DNA of 64,000 bases from Reyranella sp. (lineage in GTDB: Bacteria; Pseudomonadota; Alphaproteobacteria; Reyranellales; Reyranellaceae): positions 1 through 64,000 of the forward strand of contig NZ_SCUT01000020.1 of the NCBI RefSeq assembly GCF_004297265.1, written 5' to 3'. Positions 4,573-60,645 of this stretch are shown here, in pieces; the stretch's first letter is position 1; each line of letters starts with the position of its first letter. Made by a program: the position numbers and the translations under genes. The notes beneath the pieces were generated by a model. That model searched no databases. It had not been told where the DNA came from and saw only the letters and a list, made by a program, of their open reading frames with translations.

Positions 4573-4630
4573 GATTATCTCCCGGGCCGCTTGCGGTGAG
4601 GGGCGGGTGCGGCCTCGCTATATCTCTAAA

Positions 4631-4660
4631 ATGCTATGGGATTTGTGCCGTTTATGTCAA
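4631..4660 (-). promoter_or_regulatory. Sigma-70-like promoter for the PsiF-like gene
   Basis: Reading the minus strand, TTGACA (bases 4660-4655) is followed after 18 bases by TAGCAT (4636-4631), about 60 bases upstream of the ATG at 4572. The -35 box is a perfect consensus. On the plus strand the same bases hold a weaker divergent candidate for the permease gene, TTGTGC (4643-4648), 17 bases, TAATGG (4666-4671). Confidence 0.6.
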
Positions 4661-4698
4661 ATTCTTAATGGGTTAGAGCAACTGCAATCGGATGCGCC

Positions 4699-5637
4699 GT
4701 GCAGGCCATTTTCAACGTCGCCCTCCCGATCTTCGGCGTCATCCTGGCAGGCTTCCTGGCTGGTCGGTGGCGCATCCTGGGGCCGGAGGCGACTACGGCG
4801 CTCAACGCCTTCGTGAGCTACTTCGCCCTGCCGGTCCTGTTCTTCGGCACCCTGGCGCGCACGCCGGTGGCCGCCGTGCTTGATCCCAGCCTGATGGCGG
4901 GCTTCGGCATCGCCGTGGTCGCCACCTTCGGCGTCGCCATGATCACCACGCGGCTCGTTTCGCGAGGCGGTCTCGCCGCCATGAGCCTGCAGGGCATCGC
5001 GGCCTCGTGGGGCAATGTCGGTTACATGGGTGTGCCGCTCTGCCTGGCGGCCTTCGGCGAGCAGGGCCTGCCGCCGGCCATGCTGACGGTGATCGTGACG
5101 GCGGTCGTCTCGATGGTGTTCGGCGTCATGCTGATCGAACTCGAGGTGGCGGCAGGGCACGGCCCGGTCCGGACCTTCCTGCGCGCCGCCTTCAACGTGG
5201 CGCGCAATCCCCTGCCGGTCTCGATCGCGCTCGGCATCGTGGCGTCCTGGGTCGGTCTGCCGATCCCCGTGCCGGTCGAGAAGTGGCTCGACCTGATGGG
5301 CGCCGCGGCCGCGCCCTGTGCGCTGTTCGCCATCGGCCTGTTCCTGTCGGACAAGTCGATCAAGAGCGGTCTCGCCGAGGCCGGGCTCGCCACCCTGATC
5401 AAGCTCCTGCTGCAGCCGCTGGCGGCGCTGGTGATCCTGCCTTTGTTCGTGCCGATCGATTCGATCGCGGGCAAGGTAGCCTTGCTGATGGCTGCGTTGC
5501 CGACGGCCGCCAACGCCTTCGTGCTGGCCAAGCAGTTCGACGTGTCGGTCGAACAGAACACCGCATCGGTTCTGCTGTCGACGGCCTTCTCGGTGGTGAC
5601 GGTTTCTGCTCTGCTGGTGTGGCTGCGCGTAACCTGA
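4699..5637 (+). CDS. AEC (auxin efflux carrier) family permease
   Basis: This 312-residue integral membrane protein has about ten hydrophobic segments in two sets of five, as in the AEC/bile-acid-transporter fold used for small organic acids. It opens QAIFNVALPIFGVILAGFLAG, the usual first helix. The crossover region contains WGNVGYMGVPL and the C-terminal half has LPTAANAFVLAKQF, both typical of AEC carriers. The start is GTG at 4699; an ATG seven bases earlier is in another frame. The substrate is unknown. It is divergent from the PsiF-like gene and lies 21 bases upstream of mscL on the same strand. Confidence 0.88.
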   Translation: MQAIFNVALPIFGVILAGFLAGRWRILGPEATTALNAFVSYFALPVLFFGTLARTPVAAVLDPSLMAGFGIAVVATFGVAMITTRLVSRGGLAAMSLQGIAASWGNVGYMGVPLCLAAFGEQGLPPAMLTVIVTAVVSMVFGVMLIELEVAAGHGPVRTFLRAAFNVARNPLPVSIALGIVASWVGLPIPVPVEKWLDLMGAAAAPCALFAIGLFLSDKSIKSGLAEAGLATLIKLLLQPLAALVILPLFVPIDSIAGKVALLMAALPTAANAFVLAKQFDVSVEQNTASVLLSTAFSVVTVSALLVWLRVT

Positions 5638-5658
5638 CGACGAAACGGGAGAACACCC

Positions 5659-6081
5659 ATGCTTCAGGAATTCAAGAAGTTCGCGATGCGCGGCAACGTC
5701 GTGGATCTCGCCATCGGCGTGATCATCGGCGCCGCCTTCAGCAAGATCATCGACTCGCTGGTCGGCGACATCATCATGCCGATCATCGGCCGCATCGCCG
5801 GCGGGCTCGACTTCACCAACTATTTCATCGGCCTCACCCCGGCGGCCAGCCAGGCCACGACCTACGATGCGGCCAAGAAGGCCGGCGCGACCCTGGGCTA
5901 CGGCACGTTCCTGACGGTGACGGTGAACTTCCTCATCATTGCGTGGGTGCTCTTCCTGGTGATCAAGGGCATGAACCGCGTGATCAAGCAGGAAGAGGCC
6001 GCCCCGCCGCCGCCCGCGCCGCCGACCAAGGAGCAGGAGCTGCTGACCGAGATCCGCGACCTCCTGAAGGCGCGCGGCTAG
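5659..6081 (+). CDS. mscL: Large-conductance mechanosensitive channel MscL
   Basis: MscL forms a homopentameric inner-membrane channel that opens on membrane tension and releases solutes after hypo-osmotic shock. The 140-residue product carries the signature N-terminus [21 protein letters not shown], the first transmembrane helix, a periplasmic loop, the second helix ([20 protein letters not shown]) and the C-terminal bundle [20 protein letters not shown] site precedes the ATG. The stop codon overlaps the stop of the convergent DapA-family gene inside the sequence CTAG. Confidence 0.97.
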
Positions 6082-6962
6082 GCCGCCGTCCTCGCGCCGA
6101 ACATCGCGTCAAGCCGGCGGGCCAGCCCGTCGGAGATCCTCGTGAGCGGCAGCCGGCATTCCGGCGAGGCGATCAGCCCCTGTCGCCACAGGAGATGCTT
6201 GATCGGCATCGGGTTGGCTTCGGCGAACAGCATCGGCACGAAGCTCGCGAGCGGGGCCCAGGCCTTGCGGGCGCCGGCGAGATCGTCGGCCCTGAAGCAG
6301 CGCTCGACCTCGACGAAGCCCTGGGTCATCAGATGGCTGGCCGCCAGGATGCCGCCCTCGGCGCCGTTGGCGCGCATGGTGAAGAACAGCGCATCCTCGC
6401 CGGTCAGCACGGCGAAGTCGGCCGGCTTGCGGCGCAGCAGCTCGAGCGATTGCTCGACGCTGCCGGAACTGTCCTTCACGCCGACGATGTTCGGTACCTC
6501 GGCCAGCTCCAGCAGCGAGTCGTTGGCGAGGTTCACCGCCGTGCGATAGGGAATGTTGTAGATCACCACGTCGCGGTCGGTGGCCGCGGCGATGCGCCGG
6601 AAGTGCGCGATCAGCCCGTCCTGGCTCGGCCGGTTGTAGTAGGGGCACACCGACAGGATGCCGGCGATCGGCAGGTGGCGCAGCCGCTTCAGCTCCTTCT
6701 CGACCTTGGCGGTGGCGTTGCCGCCCACGCCCGCGAAGACCGGCACCCTTCCGTCGGCGACGGCCAGCGTGCGCTCGATCACAGCGGCGATCTCGTCCCC
6801 GTCCAGGGCGGGCGATTCGCCCGTGGTGCCGAGCGGCAGCAGCCCGTCGACGCCTTTGCCGATGTAGTGGTTCACCAGCCGGTCGTAGCTCGCGAAGTCG
6901 ATGGCGCCGTCCTTGAACGGCGTGATGAGCGGCAGCCAGAGGCCTGAAATCTTCGTGGTCAT
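6078..6962 (-). CDS. dapA: DapA/NanA-family Schiff-base lyase (dihydrodipicolinate-synthase-like)
   Basis: This is a 294-residue class I aldolase-fold enzyme. Motifs seen include [10 protein letters not shown] (pyruvate carboxylate binding), VIYNIPYRT with the catalytic tyrosine, and VGVKDSSG with the Schiff-base lysine. The family condenses or cleaves pyruvate adducts; true DapA makes 4-hydroxy-tetrahydrodipicolinate for lysine and peptidoglycan. Because it is paired with a divergent LysR regulator rather than lysine genes, it could instead be a catabolic 2-keto-sugar or N-acetylneuraminate-type lyase. The start is taken at MTTK (6962), because the upstream extension runs into the shared promoter region. 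Confidence 0.85.
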
Positions 6963-6980
6963 GGCGCCACGGTAAGGCTG

Positions 6981-7036
6981 TTCAATGAATAACAAAAACG
7001 AATGTTTTGGATGAGATCGTTCACAAGTGATTATAT
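6981..7036. promoter_or_regulatory. Divergent dapA/LysR control region with two inverted repeats
   Basis: The 74-base gap is A/T-rich compared with its surroundings. It holds the palindromes TTCA-A-TGAA (6981-6989) and TCAC-AA-GTGA (7021-7030), candidate LysR-type binding sites. A -10-like TTATAT occupies 7031-7036. A transcript started from it would begin at about 7043, exactly at an in-frame ATG, so the regulator mRNA may be leaderless. The -35 match (TTGGAT, 18-base spacer) is weak. Confidence 0.45.
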
Positions 7037-7915
7037 GTGGCTATGCGCAAGGATCTCGACATGGCGCTGGTGCGCGCCTTCCTCACCGTCGTCGAAGCGG
7101 GCGGCGTGACGCGTGCGGCGGCGGTGCTGGGCATGAGCCAGGCCGCCGCCAGCCAGCAGATCAAGCGGCTGGAGGAGGCGCTCGACTGCCGCCTGTTCAC
7201 GCGTCAGGGACGCGGGCTCGTGCTGGCGCCGGCGGGCGAACGGCTGCTCGAACAGGCGCGGCGCCTGGTGGCGATGAACGACGAGGTCTGGTCGTCGATG
7301 CGCGCGCCGCAGTTCGAGGGAGAGGTCCGCTTGGGCGTGCCCTACGATATCATCGGCAGCTTCGTGCCGGCGATCCTGCGGCGCTTCGCCAAGGCGCAGC
7401 CGCGGGTCCGGGTCAGCCTCGTCTGCGAGGATTCGCGCCTGATCCGCGAGGAGCTGAAGTCGGGCGGCGTCGATCTCGCCATGACGACCGAGACGGAATG
7501 CGGCCGCCACGGCGAGACCCTGCGCACCGACCGGCTGGTCTGGGTCGGCGCGCCGGACGGGGATGCCCATCTCAAGGATCCGCTGCCGGTGTCGCTCGGC
7601 GCGCCGACCTGCGTCTTCCGCCCCGTCGCCGTGGAGGCGTTAGGCAAGGCGCGGCGCGACTGGCGTGCGGTCTGCGAGGTGAGCCGGCTGGAGCCGGTCT
7701 ACGCCGTGCTGGAGGCGGGCCTGGCCGTGGCGCCGCTGCTGCGCTCCTCGGTGCCCGAACGCTTCGTGATCCTGGGCCGCGAGGCCCGGCTGCCGCCGCT
7801 GCCGGAGTTCCGCATCAACCTCTATGCGCCACCCGGCCTCGGTCCCGCCGCACGTGACCTGGCCGATCATGTGCGAGCGAGCTTTTCCGGGCGGTCACGG
7901 AACCTCAACAATTGA
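7037..7915 (+). CDS. LysR-family transcriptional regulator
   Basis: The 292-residue product has an N-terminal winged helix-turn-helix (residues 3-62, including GGVTRAAAVLGMSQAAASQQIKRLEE) and a C-terminal LysR substrate-binding domain. It probably controls the divergent DapA-family gene and itself. The start may be GTG at 7037 or ATG at 7043; the latter coincides with the transcription start predicted from the TTATAT box, and no Shine-Dalgarno sequence is visible. The effector is unknown. The stop is followed after a few bases by the structured region at 7921-8065. Confidence 0.92.
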   Translation: MAMRKDLDMALVRAFLTVVEAGGVTRAAAVLGMSQAAASQQIKRLEEALDCRLFTRQGRGLVLAPAGERLLEQARRLVAMNDEVWSSMRAPQFEGEVRLGVPYDIIGSFVPAILRRFAKAQPRVRVSLVCEDSRLIREELKSGGVDLAMTTETECGRHGETLRTDRLVWVGAPDGDAHLKDPLPVSLGAPTCVFRPVAVEALGKARRDWRAVCEVSRLEPVYAVLEAGLAVAPLLRSSVPERFVILGREARLPPLPEFRINLYAPPGLGPAARDLADHVRASFSGRSRNLNN

Positions 7916-7920
7916 TACCA

Positions 7921-8023
7921 AGCGCCCCCTGTGCGGAGGTCGCGCCGGCCCGTATCTTCGCGGGCATGGATTGACGCGGTTCGAGACATCGCCGCGGCGG
8001 CCGACGAGTTTAGAGGGGGCGTC
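7921..8023 (+). ncRNA. Candidate structured RNA (leader or sRNA) before a terminator
   Basis: The non-coding stretch folds by eye into a long-range closing helix, CGCCCCCT (7923-7930) with AGGGGGCG (8014-8021). Inside it is a second helix, GTCG-CGCCG (7939-7947) with CGGCG-GC-CGAC (7995-8005). An inner hairpin GCCCG/CGGGC follows at about 7949-7965. The 5' strand of the closing helix can also pair with GGGGGC at 8025-8030, the 5' arm of the terminator. It does not match small SRP RNA, and I see neither tRNA nor tmRNA features. It could be a leader of the acetyltransferase gene or an independent small RNA. No convincing promoter was found. Confidence 0.4.
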
Positions 8024-8024
8024 T

Positions 8025-8065
8025 GGGGGCCTGGAGAGTGTAACAACTCTCCGGGCCCTCTTTTT
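8025..8065 (+). terminator. Strong intrinsic terminator between LysR and GNAT genes
   Basis: The stem pairs 8025-8039 with 8046-8060 (15 pairs including two G-U wobbles) around the 6-base loop GTAACA. Five T residues follow. The hairpin lies 60 bases upstream of the acetyltransferase start, so it ends either the LysR transcript, the candidate RNA at 7921-8023, or an attenuated leader. Confidence 0.85.
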
Positions 8066-8128
8066 GTGCTGACATGAAAGGGTCATGGAGGCGTGTTTGA
8101 TCCGGTCGTCTCGAAGGAGGAGCGGGTG

Positions 8129-8713
8129 ATGTCTGCAACGAGCGAGTCCGTGCTCGAAAAGCCACGCGGCGCCGTCGTGGTCCGGCCGTCGACCGAAAAC
8201 GACGTGCCGGCCATGATTGCGATCTACACGCACCACATCACACGGGGCGTGGGCGACGTCGATATCGAGCCGACACAGGCCGACGACATCAAGCGGCGAC
8301 GCAAGAACATGCTGCGGCGCCGGTTGCCGCACCTCGCCGCGGAACGCGACGGCGTGATCGTGGGCTATGCCTATGCGGTGCCGTTCCGCAAGCGCCCGGC
8401 CTATCGCTATGCGGTGAAGCACTCGATCTATGTCCATCCCGACCATGTCTCCACCGGGATCGGCCGTCTGCTCCTGCCGGCGCTGATCGAGGCCTGCGCC
8501 AGTGCGGGTTATCGCCAGATGTTCGCCTATGTCGACGCCGACAATGTCGCGTCGCTCAGCCTGCACGAAGCTCACGGCTTTCGCCGCGTCGGCCTGCTGG
8601 AAGGCGTCGGCTTCAAGTACGGCAAATGGGCCGACAGCGTGCTGATGCAGCGCGCCATCGGCCCGGGCAGCACGACGCCGCCCGTCGAGATCGCCTACTC
8701 GCGCACCACGTAG
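8129..8713 (+). CDS. GNAT N-acetyltransferase, phosphinothricin-acetyltransferase-like
   Basis: The 194-residue protein is a single GNAT domain. The acetyl-CoA pyrophosphate loop reads STGIGRLLLPALIEACASAGYRQM (only its core is diagnostic), and the C-terminal part SLSLHEAHGFRRVGLLEGVGFKYGKW resembles the Pat/Bar family, which acetylates small amines such as phosphinothricin or methionine sulfoximine. Start 8129 is chosen for its excellent AAGGAGG site 8 bases upstream; a GTG at 8093 is an alternative. It sits downstream of a terminator and possible structured leader. Its 3' end overlaps the convergent decarboxylase by 19 bases. A polyamine or decarboxylase-product substrate is conceivable but unproven. 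Confidence 0.87.
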   Translation: MSATSESVLEKPRGAVVVRPSTENDVPAMIAIYTHHITRGVGDVDIEPTQADDIKRRRKNMLRRRLPHLAAERDGVIVGYAYAVPFRKRPAYRYAVKHSIYVHPDHVSTGIGRLLLPALIEACASAGYRQMFAYVDADNVASLSLHEAHGFRRVGLLEGVGFKYGKWADSVLMQRAIGPGSTTPPVEIAYSRTT

Positions 8714-11031
8714 GTGAGGAAGCGCACGCGGCCGTCCTTGTCGATCTCGCGATAGATGCCCTGGATCTCGACGTCGAAGCCGGGGAACAGGTTGGCCGAC
8801 TTCTCGAACATGCGCAGATAGTCGAGCATCGGCTTGGCCCGCTCGTCGAGCCGTTCGCCGGGCACGATGCTGGCGATGCCGGGCGGATAGACCACGAACA
8901 TGGTGGTGGCGATGCGACCCGCCGCTTCTTCGATCGGCACATAGTCGACATTGTTGCGCACGAGCTGGCGCACCGCCTCGTGCGGCGCCATCGCCGGCTC
9001 GGGCAGATGCTCGGGCATGAACTGCGCGCGCTGCATCAGGCTGACGTTGCTCTCGCGGAAGAAGGCGTGCATCTCGGCGCAGAGATCGCGCAGGCGCATG
9101 CCGGCATAGCGTGCCGGCCGCTTGCGAACGAACTCGCCAATGACGTCTTCCAGCCGCGCATTGTCGTCGTGCAGCCGCTTGAAGATCACGAGCGCGCTCA
9201 GCAAGGTGCCGGCCTTGCTCGACTCGACGCCGGGCGTCATCAGGAAGAGCAGCGAGTTGAGGTCGTTCTTCTCCGGCACGATCTGGTTCTCGCGCAGATA
9301 CTGCGCCACCACGGGGGCGGGGATACCATGGCCGGCATAGCCACCTGTCTCGCGGTCGAAGCCCGGCGTCAGCACGATCAGCTTGTTGGGATCGGTGATC
9401 GCGTAGCCCGGGGCCACGTGCTTGAAGCCGTGCCAGCGCCGCTCCGGCGCCAGCTCCCAGTATCGCGCGTGCGTCGCCAGATCGTCGGTTGGAACCTCCT
9501 CCCAGAGCTGCTCGCGGTCGCCGACCATGACGCGGTTGGGAATGAAGGGTTCGAAGAACCAGCGCCGCGCCGGGTCGCGCTCCTTGTCCTCGAACTCGCG
9601 GCGGATGGCGCGCATCTTCTTGCGGATCTCGATGCCCAGACGAATCGTGTCGTCCCACAGAACCTCGCCCGACCGCCCCTTCATCATCTGCGCGCCGACG
9701 TCTAGCGAGGCGAAGATCGGATAGAAGGGCGAGGTCGAGGCGTGCAGCATGAAGAACTCGTTGAAGCGGCGATGCTCGATGCGCCGGCGCTGGCCCTTGA
9801 TGTGGCGATCCCGGACGTGGATCTGCGAGGCCTGGCTGAAGCTCGCGAGCTGCTTGTGCGCCGACTGGGTCGCAATGATGCCGGGACTGTCCGGGCCGAG
9901 ATTGGTCAGGCCCATGGCGAAGCGGCCGGCATAGAGCGGGTGAAACTTCATGAAGCCCGCCCAGGCCTCGTCGAACAGGATGTAGTCGCAGAGGTGGCCG
10001 ATCTTCTCGACGATCAGGCGCGCGTCGTTGATCGTGCCGTCGTAGGTGCACTGCTCGATGACGGCGACGCGGAATGGCCGCTCGCGCTTCCATGCCTCCT
10101 TGTCCTGGACCAGCGGATTGGTGCGGATCTTCTCGCGGATGGCCTGCTCGTCGAGCGCCTCGTGGAAGATCGGCCCGATCAGCCCGTGGGCGTTGCGGTC
10201 GGTCTCGAGATAGATCGGGATGCCGTTGCCGAGGAACAGCGCTCCGTGATGGGCGGCCTTGTGGTTGTTGCGGTCGAACAGCACCAGGTCACTTTCCGCG
10301 ACCAGCGCCTGCAGCACGATCTTGTTGGAGGAGGAGGTACCGTTCAGCACGAAATAGGTCTTCTCCGCGCCAAAGATCGCGGCAGCCTCCTTCTGCGCCT
10401 TGAGCGCCGGGCCCTCGTGGACCAGCAGGTCGCCGAGATCGAGCACCGAATTGTCGAGGTCGTCGCGGAACACCGCCTCGCCCAGATGCTCGACGAAGAT
10501 CCGACCGATCGGGCTCCTGTTGTAGAAGATGCCGCCATTGTGCCCGGGACAGGTCCAGAGCTGGTTGCCTTCCTCGGCATAATCGACGAGCTCGCCGAAG
10601 AACGGCGTCTTCAGCGTCTCGGCGTACTGCTTCAGCCGACTCACCAGGTTCTTGGCGATGAACTCCGGCGTTTCCTCCGAGAGGAAGATATAGCCGTCGA
10701 TATAGTCCATCACTTCGACCGGGATGTCCTCCAGCCGCTTGCGGCGCACCAGGATGACGATCGGCATTTCGAGGCCGCGCCGCCGCATCATGTTGATCAT
10801 CGCGGCGGCCTTTCCGTCGAGGCCCTTCTTGCCCCAGTCGACGACCATGCAGCCGATCGCGGCATCGGTCTGGACCACCATCTCGGCATCCTCGATGCGG
10901 CGGGCCCGCACGACCTGGAAACCCATCTTCTCGATGGAAACCGTGATCTCGCCCAGCCGGAGGCCTTCGAGATCGTCGGCGTCGAAAGCCGGAGCGCAGA
11001 CGAGGAACGTGAAACGCCTGAAGAAATCCAT
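8695..11031 (-). CDS. Orn/Lys/Arg decarboxylase, PLP-dependent, AdiA/LdcI/SpeF type
   Basis: This is a 778-residue fold-I decarboxylase. An N-terminal receiver-like wing domain (about residues 1-140) is followed by the PLP domain with ATQSAHKQLASFSQ (Schiff-base Lys near 393) and FDEAWAG (Asp near 354), then a C-terminal domain. Family members decarboxylate arginine, lysine or ornithine to agmatine, cadaverine or putrescine and consume a proton, often in acid resistance. The length is closest to arginine decarboxylase AdiA, but specificity is not decided by sequence alone. Its ATG overlaps the TGA of the upstream polyphosphate kinase gene (TGATG), so the two are translationally coupled. No cognate antiporter gene lies in the window. 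Confidence 0.92.
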   Translation of the reverse strand: MDFFRRFTFLVCAPAFDADDLEGLRLGEITVSIEKMGFQVVRARRIEDAEMVVQTDAAIGCMVVDWGKKGLDGKAAAMINMMRRRGLEMPIVILVRRKRLEDIPVEVMDYIDGYIFLSEETPEFIAKNLVSRLKQYAETLKTPFFGELVDYAEEGNQLWTCPGHNGGIFYNRSPIGRIFVEHLGEAVFRDDLDNSVLDLGDLLVHEGPALKAQKEAAAIFGAEKTYFVLNGTSSSNKIVLQALVAESDLVLFDRNNHKAAHHGALFLGNGIPIYLETDRNAHGLIGPIFHEALDEQAIREKIRTNPLVQDKEAWKRERPFRVAVIEQCTYDGTINDARLIVEKIGHLCDYILFDEAWAGFMKFHPLYAGRFAMGLTNLGPDSPGIIATQSAHKQLASFSQASQIHVRDRHIKGQRRRIEHRRFNEFFMLHASTSPFYPIFASLDVGAQMMKGRSGEVLWDDTIRLGIEIRKKMRAIRREFEDKERDPARRWFFEPFIPNRVMVGDREQLWEEVPTDDLATHARYWELAPERRWHGFKHVAPGYAITDPNKLIVLTPGFDRETGGYAGHGIPAPVVAQYLRENQIVPEKNDLNSLLFLMTPGVESSKAGTLLSALVIFKRLHDDNARLEDVIGEFVRKRPARYAGMRLRDLCAEMHAFFRESNVSLMQRAQFMPEHLPEPAMAPHEAVRQLVRNNVDYVPIEEAAGRIATTMFVVYPPGIASIVPGERLDERAKPMLDYLRMFEKSANLFPGFDVEIQGIYREIDKDGRVRFLTYVVRE

Positions 11032-11954
11032 CAGTAGACCGCCGGGACATAGAGTTCGGGAGCGACCGGCGTGCGCGCATAGTCGGGCTTGTGTTCGCGC
11101 TTGGGCAGGACGATCGGTTGGTGTTCAACGTCGTTGTAGGGGACTTGTTGCAGCAGGTGATGGATGCAGTTGAGGCGCGCGCGGCGCTTGTTGTTGCCCT
11201 CGACCACCCACCAGCGTGCCTCGGGAATGTGCGTCCGCGCCAGCATCTCCTCCTTGGCCTTGGTGTACTCCTCCCAGCGCCGCCGGGATTCCAGGTCCAT
11301 GGGGGACAGCTTCCACTGCTTCATCGGATCGTGGATGCGCATCAGGAAGCGCATGTTCTGCTCCTCGTCGGTGATCGAGAACCAGTACTTGAGCAGGATG
11401 ATGCCGGACCGCACGAGCATGCGCTCGAACTCAGGGACCGTCTCGAAGAAATCCCGGACGTCGCTTTCGGTGCAGAAGCCCATGACCCGCTCGACGCCGG
11501 CGCGATTGTACCAGCTGCGGTCGAACAGCACGATTTCGCCGCCCGCCGGGAGGTGCGAGATGTAGCGCTGGAAGTACCACTGGGTGCGCTCGCGCTCGGA
11601 CGGCGCCGACAGGGCGACGGTGCGGCAGACGCGCGGGTTCAGGCGCTGGGTGACTCGCTTGATCACACCGCCCTTGCCCGCGGCGTCGCGACCCTCGAAC
11701 AGGACCACGACCTTGAGCTTCCGGGCGATCACCCAGTCCTGCAGCTTGATCAGCTCGCGCTGCAGCCGCAGCAGCTCGGTGAAATAGAATTTCCGGTCGA
11801 TGCCTTCGCTCTGCGGCAGGTCGCCGTCGCCATGCTCGGGCAGGCGGGCCAGCATCTCGTCGCCCAGTTCGAGCTCGAGATCCTCATCGATACTGTCGGC
11901 CAGCTCCCGGCGGACGCGATCTTCCAGCGCCTTGCGGTCCCCATCGCTCTGCAT
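11031..11954 (-). CDS. ppk2: Polyphosphate kinase 2 (PPK2)
   Basis: This 307-residue cytoplasmic kinase transfers phosphate between polyphosphate and nucleoside di- or monophosphates. Seen are the Walker A loop GRDAAGKGG, the PPK2 motifs RTQWYFQRYISHLPAGGEIVLFDRSWYNRAGVE (only the core is given) and the lid segment. Start 11954 is supported by GGAGG 8 bases upstream; the in-frame ATG at 12005 has no such site. It is the first gene of a two-gene unit: its stop overlaps the start of the Orn/Lys/Arg decarboxylase. Class I activity (NDP to NTP) is likely from the length but not certain. Confidence 0.93.
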   Translation of the reverse strand: MQSDGDRKALEDRVRRELADSIDEDLELELGDEMLARLPEHGDGDLPQSEGIDRKFYFTELLRLQRELIKLQDWVIARKLKVVVLFEGRDAAGKGGVIKRVTQRLNPRVCRTVALSAPSERERTQWYFQRYISHLPAGGEIVLFDRSWYNRAGVERVMGFCTESDVRDFFETVPEFERMLVRSGIILLKYWFSITDEEQNMRFLMRIHDPMKQWKLSPMDLESRRRWEEYTKAKEEMLARTHIPEARWWVVEGNNKRRARLNCIHHLLQQVPYNDVEHQPIVLPKREHKPDYARTPVAPELYVPAVY

Positions 11955-12048
11955 GCCCACGCCCTCCGTTGCCGTCCAGAATGGCCGGGAAAGTGAGGGG
12001 CGCATATGACAATTTGACGACAGCCGGGCTACGTCGCGAAGAGCACCC

Positions 12049-13140
12049 TCAGGAACGTGGCAGCAGCTCCTTCTGCTGCATCTCGGCGAAGCATTTCCGG
12101 AACATCGCCTCGGTGTCCATCACCTCGGTGAAGCCGGCCTGCATCAGCTTGATGGTCGAGACGATCGCCGCGGGTCCCGGCTCCGTGCGGCCGTAGCCCA
12201 TCGTGTAGTCGGCATATTCGAACGACAGGCCGACGAACTCCTTCAGCGTGCCCGACCTCAGTCCGTGGGCCGCGCGGATCTCGGCCCATTCGTCCTCGCG
12301 CGGCCGGATCTCGCGGTCGAGCGCCAGGGGCACGTGTGCGCCCGGCTCGAAGCCCAGCGCATCGGCGATCGCGGGCCAGACATTGGGCCACACGAAGACG
12401 TCGCCGTTGGTGACGTTGAAGATCTCGTTGCGCGCCGCCTCCGCCTCACCCGACCAGGCGATGGCGCGGGCCAGCAGATCGGCATCGACCGCCTGGGCCA
12501 CACGGCCGACGCCTCCGGGATAGTCGAGCTTCTTGCGGCCGGCCCGGCGCATGAAGGCGGCATAGACTCCCAGTGCCGGAATGACGTTCATGGCGCTGCC
12601 CACCGAATCGCCCACGATCAGCACGGGCCGCAGGATCGACCAGCTCCAGCCCTTGCCCTGCTGGCGCTCGCGCAGGAACCGTTCCTGGTTCCAGTAGAAG
12701 TTCGGCTGCTCGTGCATCTCCGAACGGTTCTCGCGCGCCGGGACGGCGAGCGGGCGGACATGGACGCCATAGGCCTTGGTGCCCTGCAGCAGGGCCACGT
12801 GCCGCAATCCTGACGCCGCTCGTTCGAGCGGGGCCATCAGATTGCGCAGCATCAGGTCGTTGGTGCGGATCTGCTCCTCTTCCTGCCATCCTGCGACCAG
12901 CCCCAGCCGTTCATGGAGGGCGGCATAGACGAGGTGCGTCACGCCCGCGAACTCGGCCGCCAGCGCCTCGCAGGCCGCCCGGTCGGTGAGATCGAGCGGC
13001 AGCCAGCGCGCGCCGTAGGTTTCGTCCGGCCGACGACGCGACACGGCAATCACCTCGCAGCCCTCGACGGCAGCGAAGTGTTTCAGGGCTGCATGGCCGA
13101 CGAGGCCCGTGGCCCCGGCGACCAGAACTTTCTTTTTCAT
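12049..13140 (-). CDS. NAD(P)-dependent reductase of the PRISE-like SDR group
   Basis: This 363-residue extended SDR begins KKKVLVAGATGLVGHAALKHF, a Rossmann GxxGxxG loop. It carries LLQGTKAYGVH and NFYWNQERFL, which replace the usual YxxxK by the asparagine-phenylalanine-aromatic motif of the PRISE (progesterone 5-beta-reductase/iridoid synthase-like) group. Such enzymes reduce activated C=C bonds of enones. The start is taken at MKKK (13140); the longer reading starts in unrelated sequence. The gene stands alone between ppk2 and a palindromic repeat cluster. The physiological substrate is unknown. Confidence 0.85.
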   Translation of the reverse strand: MKKKVLVAGATGLVGHAALKHFAAVEGCEVIAVSRRRPDETYGARWLPLDLTDRAACEALAAEFAGVTHLVYAALHERLGLVAGWQEEEQIRTNDLMLRNLMAPLERAASGLRHVALLQGTKAYGVHVRPLAVPARENRSEMHEQPNFYWNQERFLRERQQGKGWSWSILRPVLIVGDSVGSAMNVIPALGVYAAFMRRAGRKKLDYPGGVGRVAQAVDADLLARAIAWSGEAEAARNEIFNVTNGDVFVWPNVWPAIADALGFEPGAHVPLALDREIRPREDEWAEIRAAHGLRSGTLKEFVGLSFEYADYTMGYGRTEPGPAAIVSTIKLMQAGFTEVMDTEAMFRKCFAEMQQKELLPRS

Positions 13141-50650: not shown

Positions 50651-50734
50651 ATGCACGGCGGGACGGCGCGTGGACGCTGATTCTCCTTTCATTTATAGTG
50701 CTCCGATCACCTCCGGGACGTCCATCGCCGCGCA

Positions 50735-52849
50735 ATGACAAGCATCTTCGCGAAAAACCTGCGGCTGCGTCCGAGCATCCTGACGTTGTTCATTCTGCTG
50801 ACCGTGCCGGTCTTCTTCGCGATCGTTGCGGTGAACTACGTGTCGAACGAGAAGATCGCGCGCGACAATGCCGACGAACTGGTGGGGCGGTTCAGCGTCG
50901 AGGCCATCGAGAACATCCAGCACCTCTTCGATCCCATCAAGTCGCTCGTGCGCAGCGCCGCGGCACTGGGCTCCGAGCAACCCGATTTCTTCGATGACAA
51001 CCGCTCGCTGAAGTATCTCTTCAGCATCCTGCAACACAGCGATCGTATCATCAGCATGTATGTCGGCCTGAACGACGGCTCGTTCCGCCAGGCCCGGCAG
51101 ATCGATCCAGCTGTTGAGATCCAGGGCAAGCTCCCGCCGCCCGGAACGCGCTGGGCGGACCGATGGATCACGCCGCAGCGCGGGTCGTCGCCCGTGGACC
51201 ACTACCTTTTCCTCGACAAGGACCGCAAGGAACTGGGCCTCTCGGAGCAGACCACGTCCTACGACCCGCGTGCACGCCTGTGGTATGTGACCGCGCAGCA
51301 GACCCGCGACCTTTCGGTCAGCGACGTCGACGTCTTCGCCACCCTGGGGCTCGTCGGCTTCACCGTCGGCGCGCCCTTCTATGCCGACGGAGTGCTGCGC
51401 GGCGTCGCCGCCGCCGACATCACGCTCGACGGAATGTCGAACTATCTCGCCGAGCGCAAGATAAGTGCGGGCACGCTCTCCTACATCCTGGACCATCAAG
51501 GCCGGGTCATCGCCAATTCGGAGCGCACCAAGACCTATACGAGCCACAACGGCAGGGTCGAACTTCAGCACATCACGTCACTCGGAAACGACCTGCCGGC
51601 GATCGCCTTCAGCTTCCGACCCCGCGACAGCGAAAGGACGTTTTCGTTCGAGCGCGGCGGAAAGCACTACGTCGCGAGCCTTACGACCCTGCCGCCGACG
51701 TTCGGCAAGAAGTGGCAGCTCTTCGTCATCACGCCTCTGGCCGACTTCACCAGTGCCTTCGACGAGCAGAACCAGCGACTGGCCCTGTTCGGTGTGATCG
51801 CGATCGTCCTGCAGATCTGCATCATCTACTTCCTGTCCAGCGTCATCTCCTCGCCGCTCGAGCGGCTCGCGCTCAAGGTGGCGAGGATCCAGGACCTTGA
51901 GGGCGACAACCTGCCGCCTCTGCAGTCGCCAATCCGCGAGGTCGCGGTGCTCGCCCGCGCCATCGACACGCTCGATGCGGCCGTGAAGTCCTTCGCCGCC
52001 TTTGTGCCGGTGGGCCTCGTCCGCCAACTCCTCGACTCGGATCAAAAGCTGGTGCTGGGTGGCCACAGCCGCTTCCTCACGATTTTCTTCTCGGACCTCG
52101 AGGCCTTCTCCTCCATGTCGGAGGAAGTGCCCTCACAGAAGTTGCTGGCGCACGTGTCGGCCTATCTCGGCGTCGTGACCCATGCCGTCAATACGGAGCA
52201 CGGCACCATCGACAAGTTCATCGGCGATGGCGTCATGGCCTTCTGGGGGGCGCCGGCGCTGCTCGAGGACCATGCGCAGAGATCCTGCTTCGCGGCGCTG
52301 CGCATCCGCGAGGGCATGAAGGAACTGAACGCGGGTTGGGAGGCGACCGGCGCCAAGCCGTTGAAGGTCCGCATCGGCATCCACAGTGACGCCGTGCTGG
52401 TCGGCAATATCGGCTCAAAGGAGCGGATGAGCTACACCGTCATGGGCGACGGCGTGAACATCGCGGCGCGACTGGAGGGCATCAACAAGGAGTACGGCAC
52501 GGGCATCTGCATCAGCCATGCCGTCTTCAAGGAAGCTGGTGAACGCCTTTGCGTGCGTCCGATCGACGACGTCACCGTGAAGGGCCGCCGCTCGAAGGTG
52601 CCGATCTACGAGCTGGTCGGCGCCTACGGGATCGGACCGGAGTTCGAGCCTGACGAGGCGACGGTCCGCCTTTGCGAACTCACGCGCACCGCCTACAACG
52701 CGCTGGTCGCCGAGGACTATGGGACGGCGCTGTCGCGCTACCAGGAGATCCAGTCGGAATATCCCGACGATCCGGTGGCGCGGGCCATGGCGAAGCGGTT
52801 GGGAACGATCGATCCGTCGCGTCTCGTGCCGCTGCAGATGTCGCGCTGA
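50735..52849 (+). CDS. Membrane class III adenylate/guanylate cyclase with Cache sensor
   Basis: The 704-residue protein has a first transmembrane helix (about 15-35), a periplasmic double-Cache-type sensor domain (about 40-345), a second helix (about 349-371), a linker, and a class III cyclase domain (about 445-625). Metal Asp is in FFSDLEAFS, the core motifs are DKFIGDGVMAFWGAP and MGDGVNIAARLE. A C-terminal TPR-like tail follows. It should convert ATP (or GTP) to the cyclic nucleotide upon binding an external ligand. The methyltransferase gene starts 4 bases after its stop. Confidence 0.93.
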   Translation: MTSIFAKNLRLRPSILTLFILLTVPVFFAIVAVNYVSNEKIARDNADELVGRFSVEAIENIQHLFDPIKSLVRSAAALGSEQPDFFDDNRSLKYLFSILQHSDRIISMYVGLNDGSFRQARQIDPAVEIQGKLPPPGTRWADRWITPQRGSSPVDHYLFLDKDRKELGLSEQTTSYDPRARLWYVTAQQTRDLSVSDVDVFATLGLVGFTVGAPFYADGVLRGVAAADITLDGMSNYLAERKISAGTLSYILDHQGRVIANSERTKTYTSHNGRVELQHITSLGNDLPAIAFSFRPRDSERTFSFERGGKHYVASLTTLPPTFGKKWQLFVITPLADFTSAFDEQNQRLALFGVIAIVLQICIIYFLSSVISSPLERLALKVARIQDLEGDNLPPLQSPIREVAVLARAIDTLDAAVKSFAAFVPVGLVRQLLDSDQKLVLGGHSRFLTIFFSDLEAFSSMSEEVPSQKLLAHVSAYLGVVTHAVNTEHGTIDKFIGDGVMAFWGAPALLEDHAQRSCFAALRIREGMKELNAGWEATGAKPLKVRIGIHSDAVLVGNIGSKERMSYTVMGDGVNIAARLEGINKEYGTGICISHAVFKEAGERLCVRPIDDVTVKGRRSKVPIYELVGAYGIGPEFEPDEATVRLCELTRTAYNALVAEDYGTALSRYQEIQSEYPDDPVARAMAKRLGTIDPSRLVPLQMSR

Positions 52850-52852
52850 CCG

Positions 52853-53548
52853 ATGTTCGATGCCCGCAAGTCCTCTCCGGCGGTCGCGACGCTGCGGCCG
52901 AGCGAATATACGGCAGCGCTGATCCAGGTGCTTCGCGGGGAACCCAGTCGCGTGTGCGGCGCCAGGGTGCTCGAGATCGGGTGCGGAAGCGGCGTGGTCC
53001 TCGCCGTGCTGGGTGGTCTGGGGGCCGCCTCCCTCTGCGGGATCGACATCGAGGACGAGGCCATCGTCACGGGACAGGCGCTCCTGCAGGACCTCGGCCA
53101 CGAGGCGGAAATCCATCGCGGCGACATGTGGCAGCCGGTGGCGGGACGGCGCTTCGACCTCGTCGTCGCCAACCTGCCTCACTTCCCGATGGATCACTTC
53201 GAAGTGGCCGGACGCCTGTCGACCTGGAGCTCGGGAGGCATCGACGGCCGCGAACTGCTCGATCCGTTCCTCGAGGGCCTGTCGAAGCATCTCGCGATCA
53301 ACGGGCGAGCCCTCATCACCCACAATGCCTTCGTCGACGTCGGGCGCTCGCGCCGGATCCTCGAACGGTACGGTCTCGCGCTTCACATCGCGAAGACTGT
53401 GCTGGTCCACATTGCCAACGAGAAGATCGACCTGATGACACCTTCGATTCTGCGGGCGGAGGAGGGTCGTTCCATCCATCGCTATGGACCGCATGTCTTC
53501 GCCGACATGCACATCGTCGAAATCGCCGCGGCCGGGACGCGGAGCTGA
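52853..53548 (+). CDS. Class I SAM-dependent methyltransferase (HemK/PrmC-like)
   Basis: The 231-residue protein has the SAM-binding motif VLEIGCGSGVVLAVL (motif I), GIDIEDEA (motif II) and VVANLPHFP, a variant of the NPPY signature used for amide-nitrogen or amine methylation. It lies between the cyclase and a binding-protein/permease gene, with 3-base and 1-base gaps, so it is in an operon. The substrate is unknown. NPPY to NLPH suggests it differs from true release-factor methylases. Confidence 0.85.
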   Translation: MFDARKSSPAVATLRPSEYTAALIQVLRGEPSRVCGARVLEIGCGSGVVLAVLGGLGAASLCGIDIEDEAIVTGQALLQDLGHEAEIHRGDMWQPVAGRRFDLVVANLPHFPMDHFEVAGRLSTWSSGGIDGRELLDPFLEGLSKHLAINGRALITHNAFVDVGRSRRILERYGLALHIAKTVLVHIANEKIDLMTPSILRAEEGRSIHRYGPHVFADMHIVEIAAAGTRS

Positions 53549-53549
53549 C

Positions 53550-55220
53550 ATGGCGCTGCGTCGCGTTCTGTTCGTTGCGTTCGTGTGGTTCGTTGCATTG
53601 GCCGGCCTGCCGGCGCGCGCCGATACCCCGGATGCTGCGCTGGCGAAGCTGATCGACGAGGCGAAGGCCGCGGCGGTGGTGCCGGGTGCCTGCGAGCAAC
53701 CCGGTCTCGACCGGCTGGTCCGCATCTTCTGTGACGGCAGGATCCGCGTCGGCGTGCGCGAATACTATCCGCTGTTCGGGACTCGCGAGGGCCAGGTCCG
53801 CTCGGGCTACGACGTCGACGTGGCGCGCGAGATCGCCAAGCATCTCGGCGTTGAGCCGGCCTTCACGCGCGTCAACGCGGCGAGCCGCATTCCCCTGCTC
53901 GCCGACGACAAGATCGACCTCACCATCGCGACCATGGGCCACAATACCCAGCGCGACACCCAGGTGCGCTTCATCCGCCCGCACTACTATCGGTCGGAGA
54001 CGATCATCGTCGGGCCGAAGGGGCTGGCCATCAAGGACTGGCCAGATGTCGCGAGCCGCACGATCTGCGTCACGATCGGCAACGGCTCCAACGCTCAGAT
54101 CGTCTCGCACAATGCCCGCCTGATGCTGTTCGACGAGGCGGGCGTGTTGCCGGACAGGCTGCGCGATGAGACCTGCGCGCTGGTGGCGCAGGACGACAGT
54201 TTCTTCGACTTCTACTTCACCGAGCCTGCCTTTGCGCAAGCCTACGACAGGAAGTTCGGCTTCGCCCAGCTTCCCTGGGGCATGGCGGTTGCGCTGACCG
54301 GCAGTGATCGCCTCGCCCGGGCGCTCGACCTGATGAGCCAGATTTTCCATCGCGACGGCGTCTTCCTCGATGTGGCGAAGCAGAACCGAATCGGCCTCGG
54401 GTTTCTCGAACTCCAGCGCGCGGTCTGGAACCGGTCCGAGTGCAACACCGACACCGGCGCGGCCAATCCCGCCTGCGTCCTGCCGGCGCTGAGCGCGGTG
54501 CTCGAGCCCACGCGCTTTGCGCCCCAGGTGGCCGCCTTCGAGGCCTGGCTGGAAAAGCACACCGGCATCGCCGTGCAGCTGCCGATGTTCAAGACCATGC
54601 CCGCGTGGCAGCTGTTCAGAGCCGGCATCATCAACTCGCTGATCCTGGTGGCCGGCGCGTTGGTGGCGACCCTGCTGTTCGCGCTGGTGCTGGGCGCGCT
54701 GCAGAGTTCCCGGTCGTTCCTGCTGCGCTGGCCCGCCCGCGCCCTCACCATCGTGCTTCAATCCTCGCCGGTCGTGCTGACGCTCGTCATCTCCGCGGCC
54801 GTGGCGCTGGCGCTGTTTCCCTACTCGTCGGCCGTCGCGATCGGCGCGGCGATCGTGGCGCTCGGCCTGATGAACGGCGCGAATGCGGGGCAGGCAATCG
54901 GCGAGGCGATGCACACGCTGCGGACGGAGCGGGGAGGGCCGCCTGTGCCCACCGTCGACCTGTTCGGGCGCGCGGTCAGCCGCTCGGCGACCCAGATCGT
55001 GTCCTTCCTCGTCAACGCGGCGAAGGGCACGCCGATCGCGAGCTTCATCGGCGCACCCGAACTTCTGAGCGCGCTCACCGACATCACCTCGTTCGCCAGC
55101 GGCCGGGCCAGCACCTACTCGCTGCTGCTCGTCTTCTATGTCTGCGTGGTGATCGTCGTGGTGTGGTTGTGCGACAGGCTGAGGATCTGGCTCGAACGCC
55201 GGCAGATGGTGACGGCATGA
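53550..55220 (+). CDS. Fusion of an amino-acid-type (family 3) binding protein with an ABC permease domain
   Basis: The 556-residue protein has a signal peptide (MALRRVLFVAFVWFVALAG), then a family 3 solute-binding domain (about residues 40-290, with IRVGVREYYPLFG and DKIDLTIATMGHN). A linker follows, and from about residue 355 a permease domain with several helices and the conserved EAMHTLRTERGG-type EAA loop. Such SBP-permease fusions occur in polar amino acid ABC systems (GlnPQ type). The next gene, overlapping by 4 bases, encodes a second permease. No ATPase gene is present in the window. Confidence 0.85.
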   Translation: MALRRVLFVAFVWFVALAGLPARADTPDAALAKLIDEAKAAAVVPGACEQPGLDRLVRIFCDGRIRVGVREYYPLFGTREGQVRSGYDVDVAREIAKHLGVEPAFTRVNAASRIPLLADDKIDLTIATMGHNTQRDTQVRFIRPHYYRSETIIVGPKGLAIKDWPDVASRTICVTIGNGSNAQIVSHNARLMLFDEAGVLPDRLRDETCALVAQDDSFFDFYFTEPAFAQAYDRKFGFAQLPWGMAVALTGSDRLARALDLMSQIFHRDGVFLDVAKQNRIGLGFLELQRAVWNRSECNTDTGAANPACVLPALSAVLEPTRFAPQVAAFEAWLEKHTGIAVQLPMFKTMPAWQLFRAGIINSLILVAGALVATLLFALVLGALQSSRSFLLRWPARALTIVLQSSPVVLTLVISAAVALALFPYSSAVAIGAAIVALGLMNGANAGQAIGEAMHTLRTERGGPPVPTVDLFGRAVSRSATQIVSFLVNAAKGTPIASFIGAPELLSALTDITSFASGRASTYSLLLVFYVCVVIVVVWLCDRLRIWLERRQMVTA

Positions 55221-55840
55221 GCAGGATATCGCCCGACTTCGTGCCGCAACTTCTGGCCGGCATGGTGGTCAATTTCGAGATCGCCGCCATCGCGCTGCTG
55301 ATCGGCCTCGCCGTCGGCGGCCTGCTCACCCTGGCGAAGCTGGCGGGCGGCGTGCGCGGCGCGGTCGCCACGACGCTGATAGGCCTGATGCGCGCGGCGC
55401 CGACCTTCGTCGTCATGTTCTTCCTGCTGAACATCATCCCGTCGGACGCAACGCTGTTCGGCGTCCACGTCGCGCCGTCGGGCATCATGACGGTCGCCCT
55501 GTCGCTGGTGCCCTATGCCGCTGCCTATGTCGCAGACAACGGCAGCGAGGCGTTGCGGCAGTTGCGCGACGGCTCGCCGCTTGGGGCGCTGCTCTTTCTG
55601 CCCAACGTGACCCGTGCCTTTTTCGTGCTGGTCATGTCGTCGAGCGCCGGTGCCGCCATCGGCGTACCGGAAGGAATCGCGGTCATCCTGCGTGAGGCCG
55701 AGCTGATGCCGACGCTCGGCGACAAGATGGTCCTGTTCGCGATCGGCATCCTCTGTTTCGGGGTCACCCTGCAGGCGGGATTCGCGCTGATGCGCCTCCT
55801 GCAGCGCCATCTCGGCCGCCTCGCGCTGCGCGCCCGCTAG
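55217..55840 (+). CDS. Polar-amino-acid-type ABC permease
   Basis: This 207-residue permease has about five transmembrane segments and an EAA-type loop near ALRQLRDGSPLGALLFLPN. The start ATG overlaps the stop of the fusion gene (ATGA), so it is translationally coupled and should form the second half of a heteromeric membrane domain. AVILREAELMPTLGDKM is typical of the HisM/GlnP group. The ATPase partner must be encoded elsewhere. Confidence 0.85.
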   Translation: MSRISPDFVPQLLAGMVVNFEIAAIALLIGLAVGGLLTLAKLAGGVRGAVATTLIGLMRAAPTFVVMFFLLNIIPSDATLFGVHVAPSGIMTVALSLVPYAAAYVADNGSEALRQLRDGSPLGALLFLPNVTRAFFVLVMSSSAGAAIGVPEGIAVILREAELMPTLGDKMVLFAIGILCFGVTLQAGFALMRLLQRHLGRLALRAR

Positions 55841-55878
55841 GGTGTAGTCTCCTGCTCGAGAACGTGCGGGAGGAAGAA

Positions 55879-56850
55879 ATGAAGATTTCGCGGCGGCGCA
55901 CCCTTGGCGCGACGGCGGCCTTGGCCTGGGTGCCGGGGCTTGCACGCGCGCAAGCCTATCCCTCCAAACCGGTGCGGCTGATCGTGCCCTATTCGGCCGG
56001 CGGCGGCGCCGACACGACGGCTCGGCTGATCGCGCCCAAGCTTCAGGAGGCGCTGGGCCAGACGATCGTGGTGGAGAACAAGCCCGGCGCGGGCGGCATG
56101 ATCGGCGACGAGATCGTGGCCAAGGCCGCACCCGACGGCCACACACTGCTGATCGGCGCCTTTGCCCATGCCGTGAACCCGGCGCTGTTTCCCAAGATGC
56201 CGTTCCGCACGCCCGGGGATTTCGCACCGGTGTCGCTGCTGGTGACAGTGCCGGAGCTGATGGTCATCACGCCCTCGCATCCTGCCAAGACCGTGGCCGA
56301 GCTCGTGGCGCTGGCCAAGGCGCAGCCCGGCAAGCTCTCCTATGCCTCGTCGGGCAATGGCAGCGCCCAGCATCTCGCGGCCGAGCTCTTCAAGATGCGC
56401 ACCGGCACCGACATCCAGCACGTGCCCTACAAGGGCGGCGCGCTGGCGGTGGCCGATGTGGCGGCGGGTCACGTGCCCTTCTATTTTGGCAACATGAGCG
56501 CCGCCCTGCCGCAGGCGCGCGGCGGCCGCGTGCGGCCGCTCGCCGTCACCAGCGCCGCACGTTCGCCGGCGGCACCCGAGGTGCCGACCCTGGCCGAGGC
56601 CGGCGTGCCCGATTGCGAGATATCGGAATGGAACGCCCTGATTGCGCCGGCCGGCACGCCGCCTGCCGTGATCGCGCGCCTGCATGCCGAGATCGCGAAG
56701 ATCATGCGCATGGAGGAGATCAAGGCGAAGTTCGCCGATCTCGGTGCCGATGCGATCGGCTCGACGCCGGACGAACTTGCGGCCTTCCTGCGCGCCGAGA
56801 TGACCAAGTGGGCCGAGGTCGTGAAGGCCGCCAACATCAAGGTCGAGTGA
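55879..56850 (+). CDS. TctC/Bug-type periplasmic binding protein
   Basis: The 323-residue protein has a twin-arginine-like signal (MKISRRRTLGATAALAWVPG) cut near ARAQAYP. The mature part carries LIVPYSAGGGADTTAR, VENKPGAGGMIG, ASSGNGSAQHLAAELF and HVPYKGG. It binds an unknown carboxylate or aromatic acid. ATG 55879 is preferred to GTG 55864, since GGGAGG lies just before it. An SDR gene follows 4 bases after the stop, suggesting uptake and oxidation of the same compound. No TctAB permease is nearby. Confidence 0.9.
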   Translation: MKISRRRTLGATAALAWVPGLARAQAYPSKPVRLIVPYSAGGGADTTARLIAPKLQEALGQTIVVENKPGAGGMIGDEIVAKAAPDGHTLLIGAFAHAVNPALFPKMPFRTPGDFAPVSLLVTVPELMVITPSHPAKTVAELVALAKAQPGKLSYASSGNGSAQHLAAELFKMRTGTDIQHVPYKGGALAVADVAAGHVPFYFGNMSAALPQARGGRVRPLAVTSAARSPAAPEVPTLAEAGVPDCEISEWNALIAPAGTPPAVIARLHAEIAKIMRMEEIKAKFADLGADAIGSTPDELAAFLRAEMTKWAEVVKAANIKVE

Positions 56851-59664: not shown

Positions 59665-60645
59665 ATGCTCAAACGACGTCATCTGATGGCCGGTCTTGCC
59701 GGCACAATCCTGGCCGCGCCTCTCGTCGCGCGCGCCCAGGGAACCTATCCCAGCCGGTCCGTGAAGATCATCGTGCCGTGGCCACCGGGCGGCGGGGTCG
59801 ACGCCTTCGCGCGCGTCATCCAGGCGCCGCTCAGTGCCCAGCTCGGGCAGACGGTGATCGTCGAGAATATCGGCGGCAGCGCCGGCCGGGTCGGCACGCT
59901 GAACGCCTCGCGCGCCCAGCCCGACGGCTACACGATCGTCCTCGTGAACGACACGTTCGCGGCGACCGAGGCGCTGCCCATGGCGGGAACGCCGGCGCTC
60001 TATCCGGCCTTCCAGCCGGTGACGCTCGCCATCTCCGGACCGCAGGGGCTGTTCACCCATCCGCGTTCGGGCCTGGCCAGCGCCCAGGCCTTTGCCGCGG
60101 CGGCGAAAGCCAATCCCGGCAAGCTCAATGTCGGTGTCCCGGGCCTGGGCAGCAGCCAGCATCTGACGAGCGAACTGCTGCTGCGGGCGGCGGGCGATCT
60201 TCGCGTTACGCACGTGCCTTATCGCGGCGGCGGGCCGCTGCTGCAGGACCTGATCGCGGGCAACATCGATGCCGGTGTCGTCACCTTCGCGGCCGGCGCT
60301 CCGCAGGTGCGCGGCGGCCAGCTCGTGGCGCTGGCCATCACCAGTGAGCAGCGGTCCAAGGCGTTCGCTGCCGTGCCCACGGCAGCCGAGACCATCGCTC
60401 CGGGTTTCGTGCAGGCCACGTGGCAGGGGCTGCTGGCGCCCAAGGGGACGCCGGCTGCTGCAATCGAGCGCTTCCATAACGCCGTGCTGGCCGTCCTTCA
60501 GGACAGGGCCGTGATCGCGCGTCTCGCCGATCTTGGCTTCGATCCCGTGGGCGCCGACGGCAAGGTCTTCGGCCGGCTCTTCGACGAAACGGTCGACACG
60601 TTCGCCGGCATCGCCCGGGAAAGGGACATTGCGGCCGGCGATTGA
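59665..60645 (+). CDS. TctC/Bug-type periplasmic binding protein
   Basis: The 326-residue protein has a signal peptide MLKRRHLMAGLAGTILAAP cleaved near ARAQGTYP. The mature domain shows IIVPWPPGGGVDAFAR, GVPGLGSSQHLTSELL and HVPYRGGG. It is the third TctC-type protein in the window, all without TctAB genes. A GGAG site precedes the ATG (59665). The ligand is unknown. It is followed by a bidirectional terminator shared with the convergent branched-chain amino acid binding protein gene. Confidence 0.9.
   Translation: MLKRRHLMAGLAGTILAAPLVARAQGTYPSRSVKIIVPWPPGGGVDAFARVIQAPLSAQLGQTVIVENIGGSAGRVGTLNASRAQPDGYTIVLVNDTFAATEALPMAGTPALYPAFQPVTLAISGPQGLFTHPRSGLASAQAFAAAAKANPGKLNVGVPGLGSSQHLTSELLLRAAGDLRVTHVPYRGGGPLLQDLIAGNIDAGVVTFAAGAPQVRGGQLVALAITSEQRSKAFAAVPTAAETIAPGFVQATWQGLLAPKGTPAAAIERFHNAVLAVLQDRAVIARLADLGFDPVGADGKVFGRLFDETVDTFAGIARERDIAAGD

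Follow-up and report, generated by a model that had tools for sequence, protein, structure and literature searches.

A conserved four-gene run in Reyranella that links a dCache adenylyl cyclase and a methyltransferase to an importer-like membrane pair without a motor: a candidate membrane signalling module

Our analysis concerns four consecutive genes on the forward strand of a 64,000-nucleotide stretch of DNA from Reyranella sp. (NCBI RefSeq assembly GCF_004297265.1, contig NZ_SCUT01000020.1, positions 1 to 64,000), which we call the window. Gene 1 encodes a sensor cyclase, gene 2 a methyltransferase, gene 3 a solute-binding protein (SBP) domain fused to a transmembrane domain (TMD-A) resembling the permeases of ATP-binding cassette (ABC) transporters, and gene 4 a second permease-like protein (TMD-B; Table 1). 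An earlier sequence-only reading had described the run as an unusual combined uptake and signalling operon, with gaps of 3, 1 and −4 bases between its genes. The coordinates of the open reading frames (ORFs) confirm these gaps; for gene 3 we adopted the ATG at 53550, and a longer upstream start at 53484 is also in the ORF list. The solute-binding/permease pair of that reading is present in both its components, but the binding protein is itself fused to a permease domain, so the run holds two permease domains rather than one. A site scan found no promoter-like site inside the run and one near it, which is weak and lies upstream (1 found vs. 0.5 expected), while the count of terminator-like sites (6 found vs. 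4.0 expected) is that of background. Tight packing is common in bacteria; it is the conservation of gene order that makes this run notable.

Table 1. Coordinates of the four genes and of the features discussed in the text (positions in the window).
Feature	Position	Strand	Basis
Gene 1, dCache sensor class III adenylyl cyclase, 704 amino acids	50735..52849	+	Pfam dCache_1 and Guanylate_cyc
dCache_1 match, residues 149-331, with Y176, R181, W183, Y184, D228	51179..51727	+	Pfam; motif alignment (PctA positions from PMC10104139)
Guanylate_cyc catalytic domain, residues 448-625	52076..52609	+	Pfam
Gene 2, class I S-adenosylmethionine-dependent methyltransferase, HemK2/N6AMT1-like, 231 amino acids	52853..53548	+	Pfam Methyltransf_25/MTS; structure-profile match
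NLPH motif, residues 107-110, replacing NPPY	53171..53182	+	alignment
Gene 3, amino-acid-type SBP_bac_3 domain and ABC-permease-like TMD-A, 556 amino acids	53550..55220	+	Pfam, NCBIfam, fold match
TMD-A, about residues 346-556, with a variable short loop for the EAA motif	54585..55217	+	alignment, no Pfam match
Gene 4, second ABC-permease-like protein TMD-B, 207 amino acids	55217..55840	+	AlphaFold2 fold match
Site of the missing 20 EAA-loop residues, about residues 127/128 of TMD-B	55595..55600	+	anchor-spacing comparison
Sole promoter-like site near the run, TGGACG-17-TATAGT	50671..50699	+	weak, 1 found vs. 0.5 expected

Within the genus, genes 1, 3 and 4 have strong matches in 37 of 37 genomes searched (a few of them partial at contig ends), as does gene 2 in 25 of 25; for gene 4, the 24 genomes of that sample from outside the genus give nothing of similar strength (best 3e-6). 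The profile of gene 4, run against named genome contigs, brought up 96 relatives, 80 of which were kept. In 69 of these 80 loci the cyclase, the methyltransferase, the binding domain, TMD-A and TMD-B lie in this order on the same strand. Among the remaining 11, six have everything except the cyclase (three of them are cut by a contig end) and in five, which lie at or close to a contig end, the sequence starts within the cluster. The bearers include Reyranella massiliensis, R. aquatilis, R. soli, Enhydrobacter aerosaccus and two Nisaea species, as well as Ruegeria, Chachezhania, Marinibacterium, Flavimaribacter and Acidisphaera; Rhodobacteraceae and Rhizobiaceae are both represented. Across the loci the identity of methyltransferase and cyclase falls to about 45–50%, and the spacing between the two, measured from match to match, ranges from −12 to 948 bases with a median of 59. 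The sequence-only reading had tied its proposal of a unit (a Cache cyclase, a methyltransferase with an NLPH motif and a binding-protein/permease pair) to conservation of the gene order, and on this point it holds up.

What the cluster lacks is the machinery of a pump. Ordinary permeases dock their ATPase through a cytoplasmic loop that carries the EAA motif. TMD-B is without exactly 20 residues of this loop: 43 residues separate two conserved anchors in gene 4 vs. 63 in all 29 EAA-containing homologues. All 34 window-family rows, a diverse selection from the 80 loci and the window itself, share the spacing of 43, as does the additional locus L201; in six of six more distant relatives it is 36–43. 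Ordinary amino-acid permeases of the genome that the window comes from (L215, L217, L218) serve as a control: they keep the EAA motif, and each of their loci includes an ATPase. In TMD-A the alignment contains no recognisable EAA motif, only a short variable stretch in its place. Gene 4 has no match in Pfam. Its AlphaFold2 model (predicted local distance difference test score, pLDDT, 89; predicted template modelling score, pTM, 0.84) has as its best PDB match 4yms_D, the permease of an amino-acid ABC transporter (Z 20.4, root-mean-square deviation 2.7, 191 residues aligned), and in this model TMD-B keeps the type I importer fold. Matches to the amino-acid permease family TIGR01726 of NCBIfam, in gene 4 and in the C-terminal part of gene 3, are below the cut-off; for TMD-A a weak NCBIfam match is all that identifies it as a permease.

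The ATPase is missing as well. Using a hidden Markov model (HMM) built from 22 ATPases, we found no ABC ATPase inside the cluster or as an immediate same-strand neighbour in any of 92 motorless loci, judged by position. Any ABC-like match at all was present in 14 of the 92, always elsewhere in the locus. The nearest are an exporter-like protein on the opposite strand adjoining L177 and, in L112, a weak partial match (2e-7) at a distance of about 1.3 kb beyond the cluster; the others are about 2 kb or more downstream or lie in divergent genes. The ordinary EAA-containing homologues look very different, since 25 of 27 have an ATPase within 1.5 kb (a count that sums LSGGQ-type regular-expression scans and the HMM scan; the exceptions are L230 and L249). 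The run thus fails two features that define an importer, the EAA loop and a co-encoded ATPase, and it should not be filed as an ABC importer even though it derives from that family. For the same two reasons we reject a powered uptake operon.

All seven catalytic positions that we checked in the cyclase (D454, K494, D498, T568, D572, N575, R579) are invariant in 66–67 aligned rows; we take them to be the two metal-binding aspartates, the substrate-binding lysine and threonine and the transition-state asparagine and arginine. Its sensor domain probably detects amino acids, judging from its motif: Y176, R181, W183, Y184 and D228 are spaced as are Y121, R126, W128, Y129 and D173 of the amino-acid motif of PctA (PMC10104139), which also includes Y144. 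Four of the five residues are kept in 66 of 66 rows and Y184 in 65 of 66. Several loci (L131, L137, L144, L146, L148, L156, L157, L158, L162) also have a second, distant class III cyclase-like match (24–31% identity) a few kilobases downstream of the cassette, at about 10–13.7 kb, in a part of the family.

Gene 3 carries a clear SBP_bac_3 domain (Pfam, E 1.2e-19). In its model the fold match, 3vv5_A (Z 25.7, root-mean-square deviation 2.0, 233 residues aligned), covers the binding domain only; the model as a whole is less certain (pLDDT 79, pTM 0.64, loop 503–519 below 50), and no result rests on its membrane half. R135 and D215 of the binding domain are kept in 78 of 78 loci; on alignment to an ancestral amino-acid-binding protein they fall at positions with which LAO-type proteins bind the carboxylate and the amino group of their ligand. 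The binding domain also has six nearly invariant cysteines (48, 61, 173, 209, 298 and 309; window positions 53550–54584), which suggests periplasmic disulphides. According to the sequence-only reading the cyclase and the pair might sense and import the same ligand. Judging from the two conserved motifs, it is plausible that both sensors recognise one class of ligand; the import half of the idea finds no support.

The closest solved relatives of the methyltransferase are HemK2/N6AMT1 (PDB profile, E 1.7e-10), and its NCBIfam scores are all below the cut-off. The motif NPPY, which we take to be the catalytic motif of the PrmC/HemK glutamine methyltransferases at this position, is not found in gene 2; instead there is NLPH. 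This variant is itself strongly conserved across 74 aligned loci: N and P in all 74, L in 73 and H in 70, with N or Q (two loci each) otherwise at the last position.

Profile searches beyond the family mostly return ordinary EAA-containing permeases. With the gene 4 profile we reached a number of distant EAA-less loci (L202, L203, L204, L211, L212, the genome G690 with L261 and L262 on two contigs, and L257 of Vibrio sp. THAF191d); matches with E above about 1e-10 mostly lie outside the sample that was followed. The Vibrio record is the one motorless relative followed from searches of plasmids, and an Ancylobacter record turned out to be an ordinary importer with its ATPase. In the distant loci a binding domain is likewise fused to a permease and a second permease is EAA-less, and a methyltransferase of a second family lies directly upstream in L202, L203, L211 and L257.

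The neighbours of these distant pairs are signalling proteins of other kinds. A HAMP-SpoIIE phosphatase stands next to the permease pair in four loci. In L203 it adjoins TMD-B, and in L261 it comes with a STAS protein; in L202 it was recognised by the motif GGDFYD in a downstream ORF, with STAS encoded some 3 kb upstream of the methyltransferase. The fourth, L204, goes further: a single ORF (6406–7560) consists of an EAA-less permease-like domain (TMD-B) and an RsbW-like HATPase_c_2 domain, followed by the HAMP-SpoIIE protein. This is a direct fusion of a transporter scaffold to a signalling domain. In the Vibrio locus a dCache protein overlaps TMD-B. That protein (L257, 9111–11189) combines a dCache domain with a C-terminal region that seems to contain several membrane helices. 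A pentameric channel was suspected in this region; neither the solved structures (one unrelated match, E 0.8) nor Pfam at E up to 10 gave such a match. A further neighbour recurs in two unrelated lineages: an NMT1/TAXI-like protein with an N-terminal membrane anchor adjoins the motorless pair in L211 (4298–5587, assigned by Pfam) and in L180 (6498–7799, assigned by eye from its resemblance to the L211 protein).

Two loci of a sister lineage retain the loop. L260 (genome G272, 4416–13012) holds an intact amino-acid ABC importer whose EAA-containing permeases still match BPD_transp_1. On the opposite strand its ATPase, with the variant signature LSAGQ, lies between an RsbW-like protein and a second-family methyltransferase, followed by HAMP-SpoIIE and STAS. 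Its sister L259 (genome G171) has an intact loop and no ATPase of its own seen beside it; its two ABC-like matches sit in other genes. A tree of 41 permeases has one branch (support 96/92) that separates 21 EAA-containing rows, among them L238 and L239, from 20 EAA-less rows. The root was placed for drawing only, no more than 15 of the 38 inner branches are well supported and the branch to the window family is very long. The split fits a single loss of the loop in a lineage that already lived among signalling genes.

What do these genes do? Going by the domains and their order, the catalytic residues of the cyclase, the amino-acid pocket residues, the lost EAA loop, the missing ATPase and the signalling links of the relatives, we lean towards the view that the four genes form a membrane signalling module, a ligand receptor made from an amino-acid ABC importer without its motor, rather than a pump. 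The periplasmic binding domain would capture an amino-acid-like ligand, as its motifs and fold suggest, and would dock onto its own TMD-A and onto TMD-B. No longer driven by ATP, the pair may then transmit a conformational change instead of pumping, and this signal together with that of the neighbouring dCache cyclase could set the level of cyclic AMP (cAMP). The methyltransferase would be the constant cytoplasmic partner, perhaps modifying a small molecule or the receptor itself for adaptation. A well-known case of the latter is CheR, which modifies chemoreceptors for adaptation. Because the relatives are tied to other signalling enzymes, we favour sensing over powered uptake, and the import function proposed in the sequence-only reading is not supported. 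The best reading of the relatives is that output enzymes are exchangeable, an adenylyl cyclase in one lineage, SpoIIE phosphatase with RsbW and STAS or a dCache membrane protein in others, with a methyltransferase associated.

More tentatively, and with slightly more doubt than conviction, we propose that these loci represent an undescribed class of transmembrane receptors. It would have arisen by one excision of the EAA loop and loss of the ATPase in an importer beside signalling genes, after which outputs were exchanged and the methyltransferase was kept as part of the core.

Several observations weigh against the signalling module. L167, L177 and L180 belong to the window family and have room for a cyclase, but their neighbourhoods (ORF starts read by eye) contain neither a cyclase nor another recognised output enzyme; the cyclase is therefore not obligatory. 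No recognised output enzyme adjoins the pair in L211 and L212 either, and L204 and L212 have no methyltransferase match. The dCache motif is incomplete, since the position corresponding to Y144 in the PctA motif is D (53 of 66) or E (13 of 66) and not aromatic. Finally, TMD-B is 94–99% conserved where SBP::TMD is 88–91%, and a channel would show the same.

One could also argue that the pair is an ATP-independent carrier or channel, which lets an amino-acid-like solute pass while the cyclase senses the same solute nearby. The predicted importer fold of TMD-B would suit such a role, as would the fact that the membrane segments are the most conserved parts. Yet the neighbours of the relatives are phosphatases, STAS proteins and an RsbW-like domain, not genes of metabolism, and we know of no precedent for the transmembrane domains of a type I importer working without their ATPase, so we consider this explanation unlikely. 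A further rival is an ordinary importer served in trans by an ATPase encoded elsewhere in the genome. Some sugar importers share their ATPases, and this genome does hold ordinary amino-acid ABC loci with ATPases. Against this, 35 of 35 window-family rows (the 34 and L201) have lost the 20 residues from TMD-B, TMD-A has no EAA motif, and the ordinary permeases of the same genome have kept theirs. This makes a borrowed motor very unlikely.

A different idea is that the methyltransferase provides the driving force, by methylating the incoming ligand in the cytoplasm and thereby trapping it. In its favour, both main lineages carry a class I methyltransferase immediately upstream, and the two belong to different families (one in the window family and L201, the other in L202, L203, L211 and L257). 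But a methyltransferase is also found in L260, where ATPase and EAA loop persist, and L204 and L212 show no match to one; we regard methyl-group translocation, too, as very unlikely. It might finally be that the genes are mere neighbours with separate functions. The variable distance between cyclase and methyltransferase and the three loci without a cyclase fit this view, whereas an order kept in most loci down to the lowest identities does not, and mere proximity seems improbable to us.

If the receptor hypothesis is correct, then ABC importers, which are among the largest families of membrane proteins, have yielded dedicated receptors by losing their motor, much as kinases have yielded pseudokinases. 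Uptake would then be over-predicted in genomes like these, where the genes resemble amino-acid transporters and would be named as such. The window would also hold a cAMP system that responds to amino acids and has a methyltransferase of its own. The system would offer a testable way to follow a ligand signal across an ABC transmembrane core without ATP. Downstream of the run, the window contains two genes for TctC-like solute receptors, one identified by Pfam (55864–56850) and one by resemblance in the ORF list (59665–60645).

The cyclase, the methyltransferase and the binding domain each fall in or near known families. Our searches of open-access papers gave no description of such a combined system; for Reyranella together with adenylate cyclase they lead only to a coral microbiome paper. 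The closest comparison is with type I amino-acid ABC importers of the His/Glu/Gln/Arg type (4YMS, and GlnPQ with its fused binding domain), which share the SBP_bac_3 domain, the permease fold and the fusion of binding domain and permease; here, however, the cluster has no ATPase, the EAA loop is lost, and a cyclase and a methyltransferase are linked to the pair. Known dCache class III adenylyl cyclases have the same dCache_1 and Guanylate_cyc domains, and gene 1 has all seven catalytic positions, but it differs in its constant genomic partners, a motorless transporter pair and a methyltransferase. Gene 2 resembles HemK2/N6AMT1 and PrmC in its best PDB profile match and in a common GG-DGR region; it differs in having NLPH for NPPY and in its link to a membrane pair. 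Partner switching by RsbU, RsbW and STAS proteins is a parallel for the distant relatives only, which adjoin HAMP-SpoIIE, HATPase_c_2 and STAS genes. Pfam finds no SpoIIE phosphatase, RsbW kinase or STAS protein in the four-gene run, whose enzyme is the cyclase. Transporter-derived receptors exist in other transporter families, and SLC5-type histidine kinases are transporter-like receptors. Like them, the module described here would use a transporter fold together with a signalling enzyme; unlike them, it would do so with the core of an ABC importer that carries its own binding domain.

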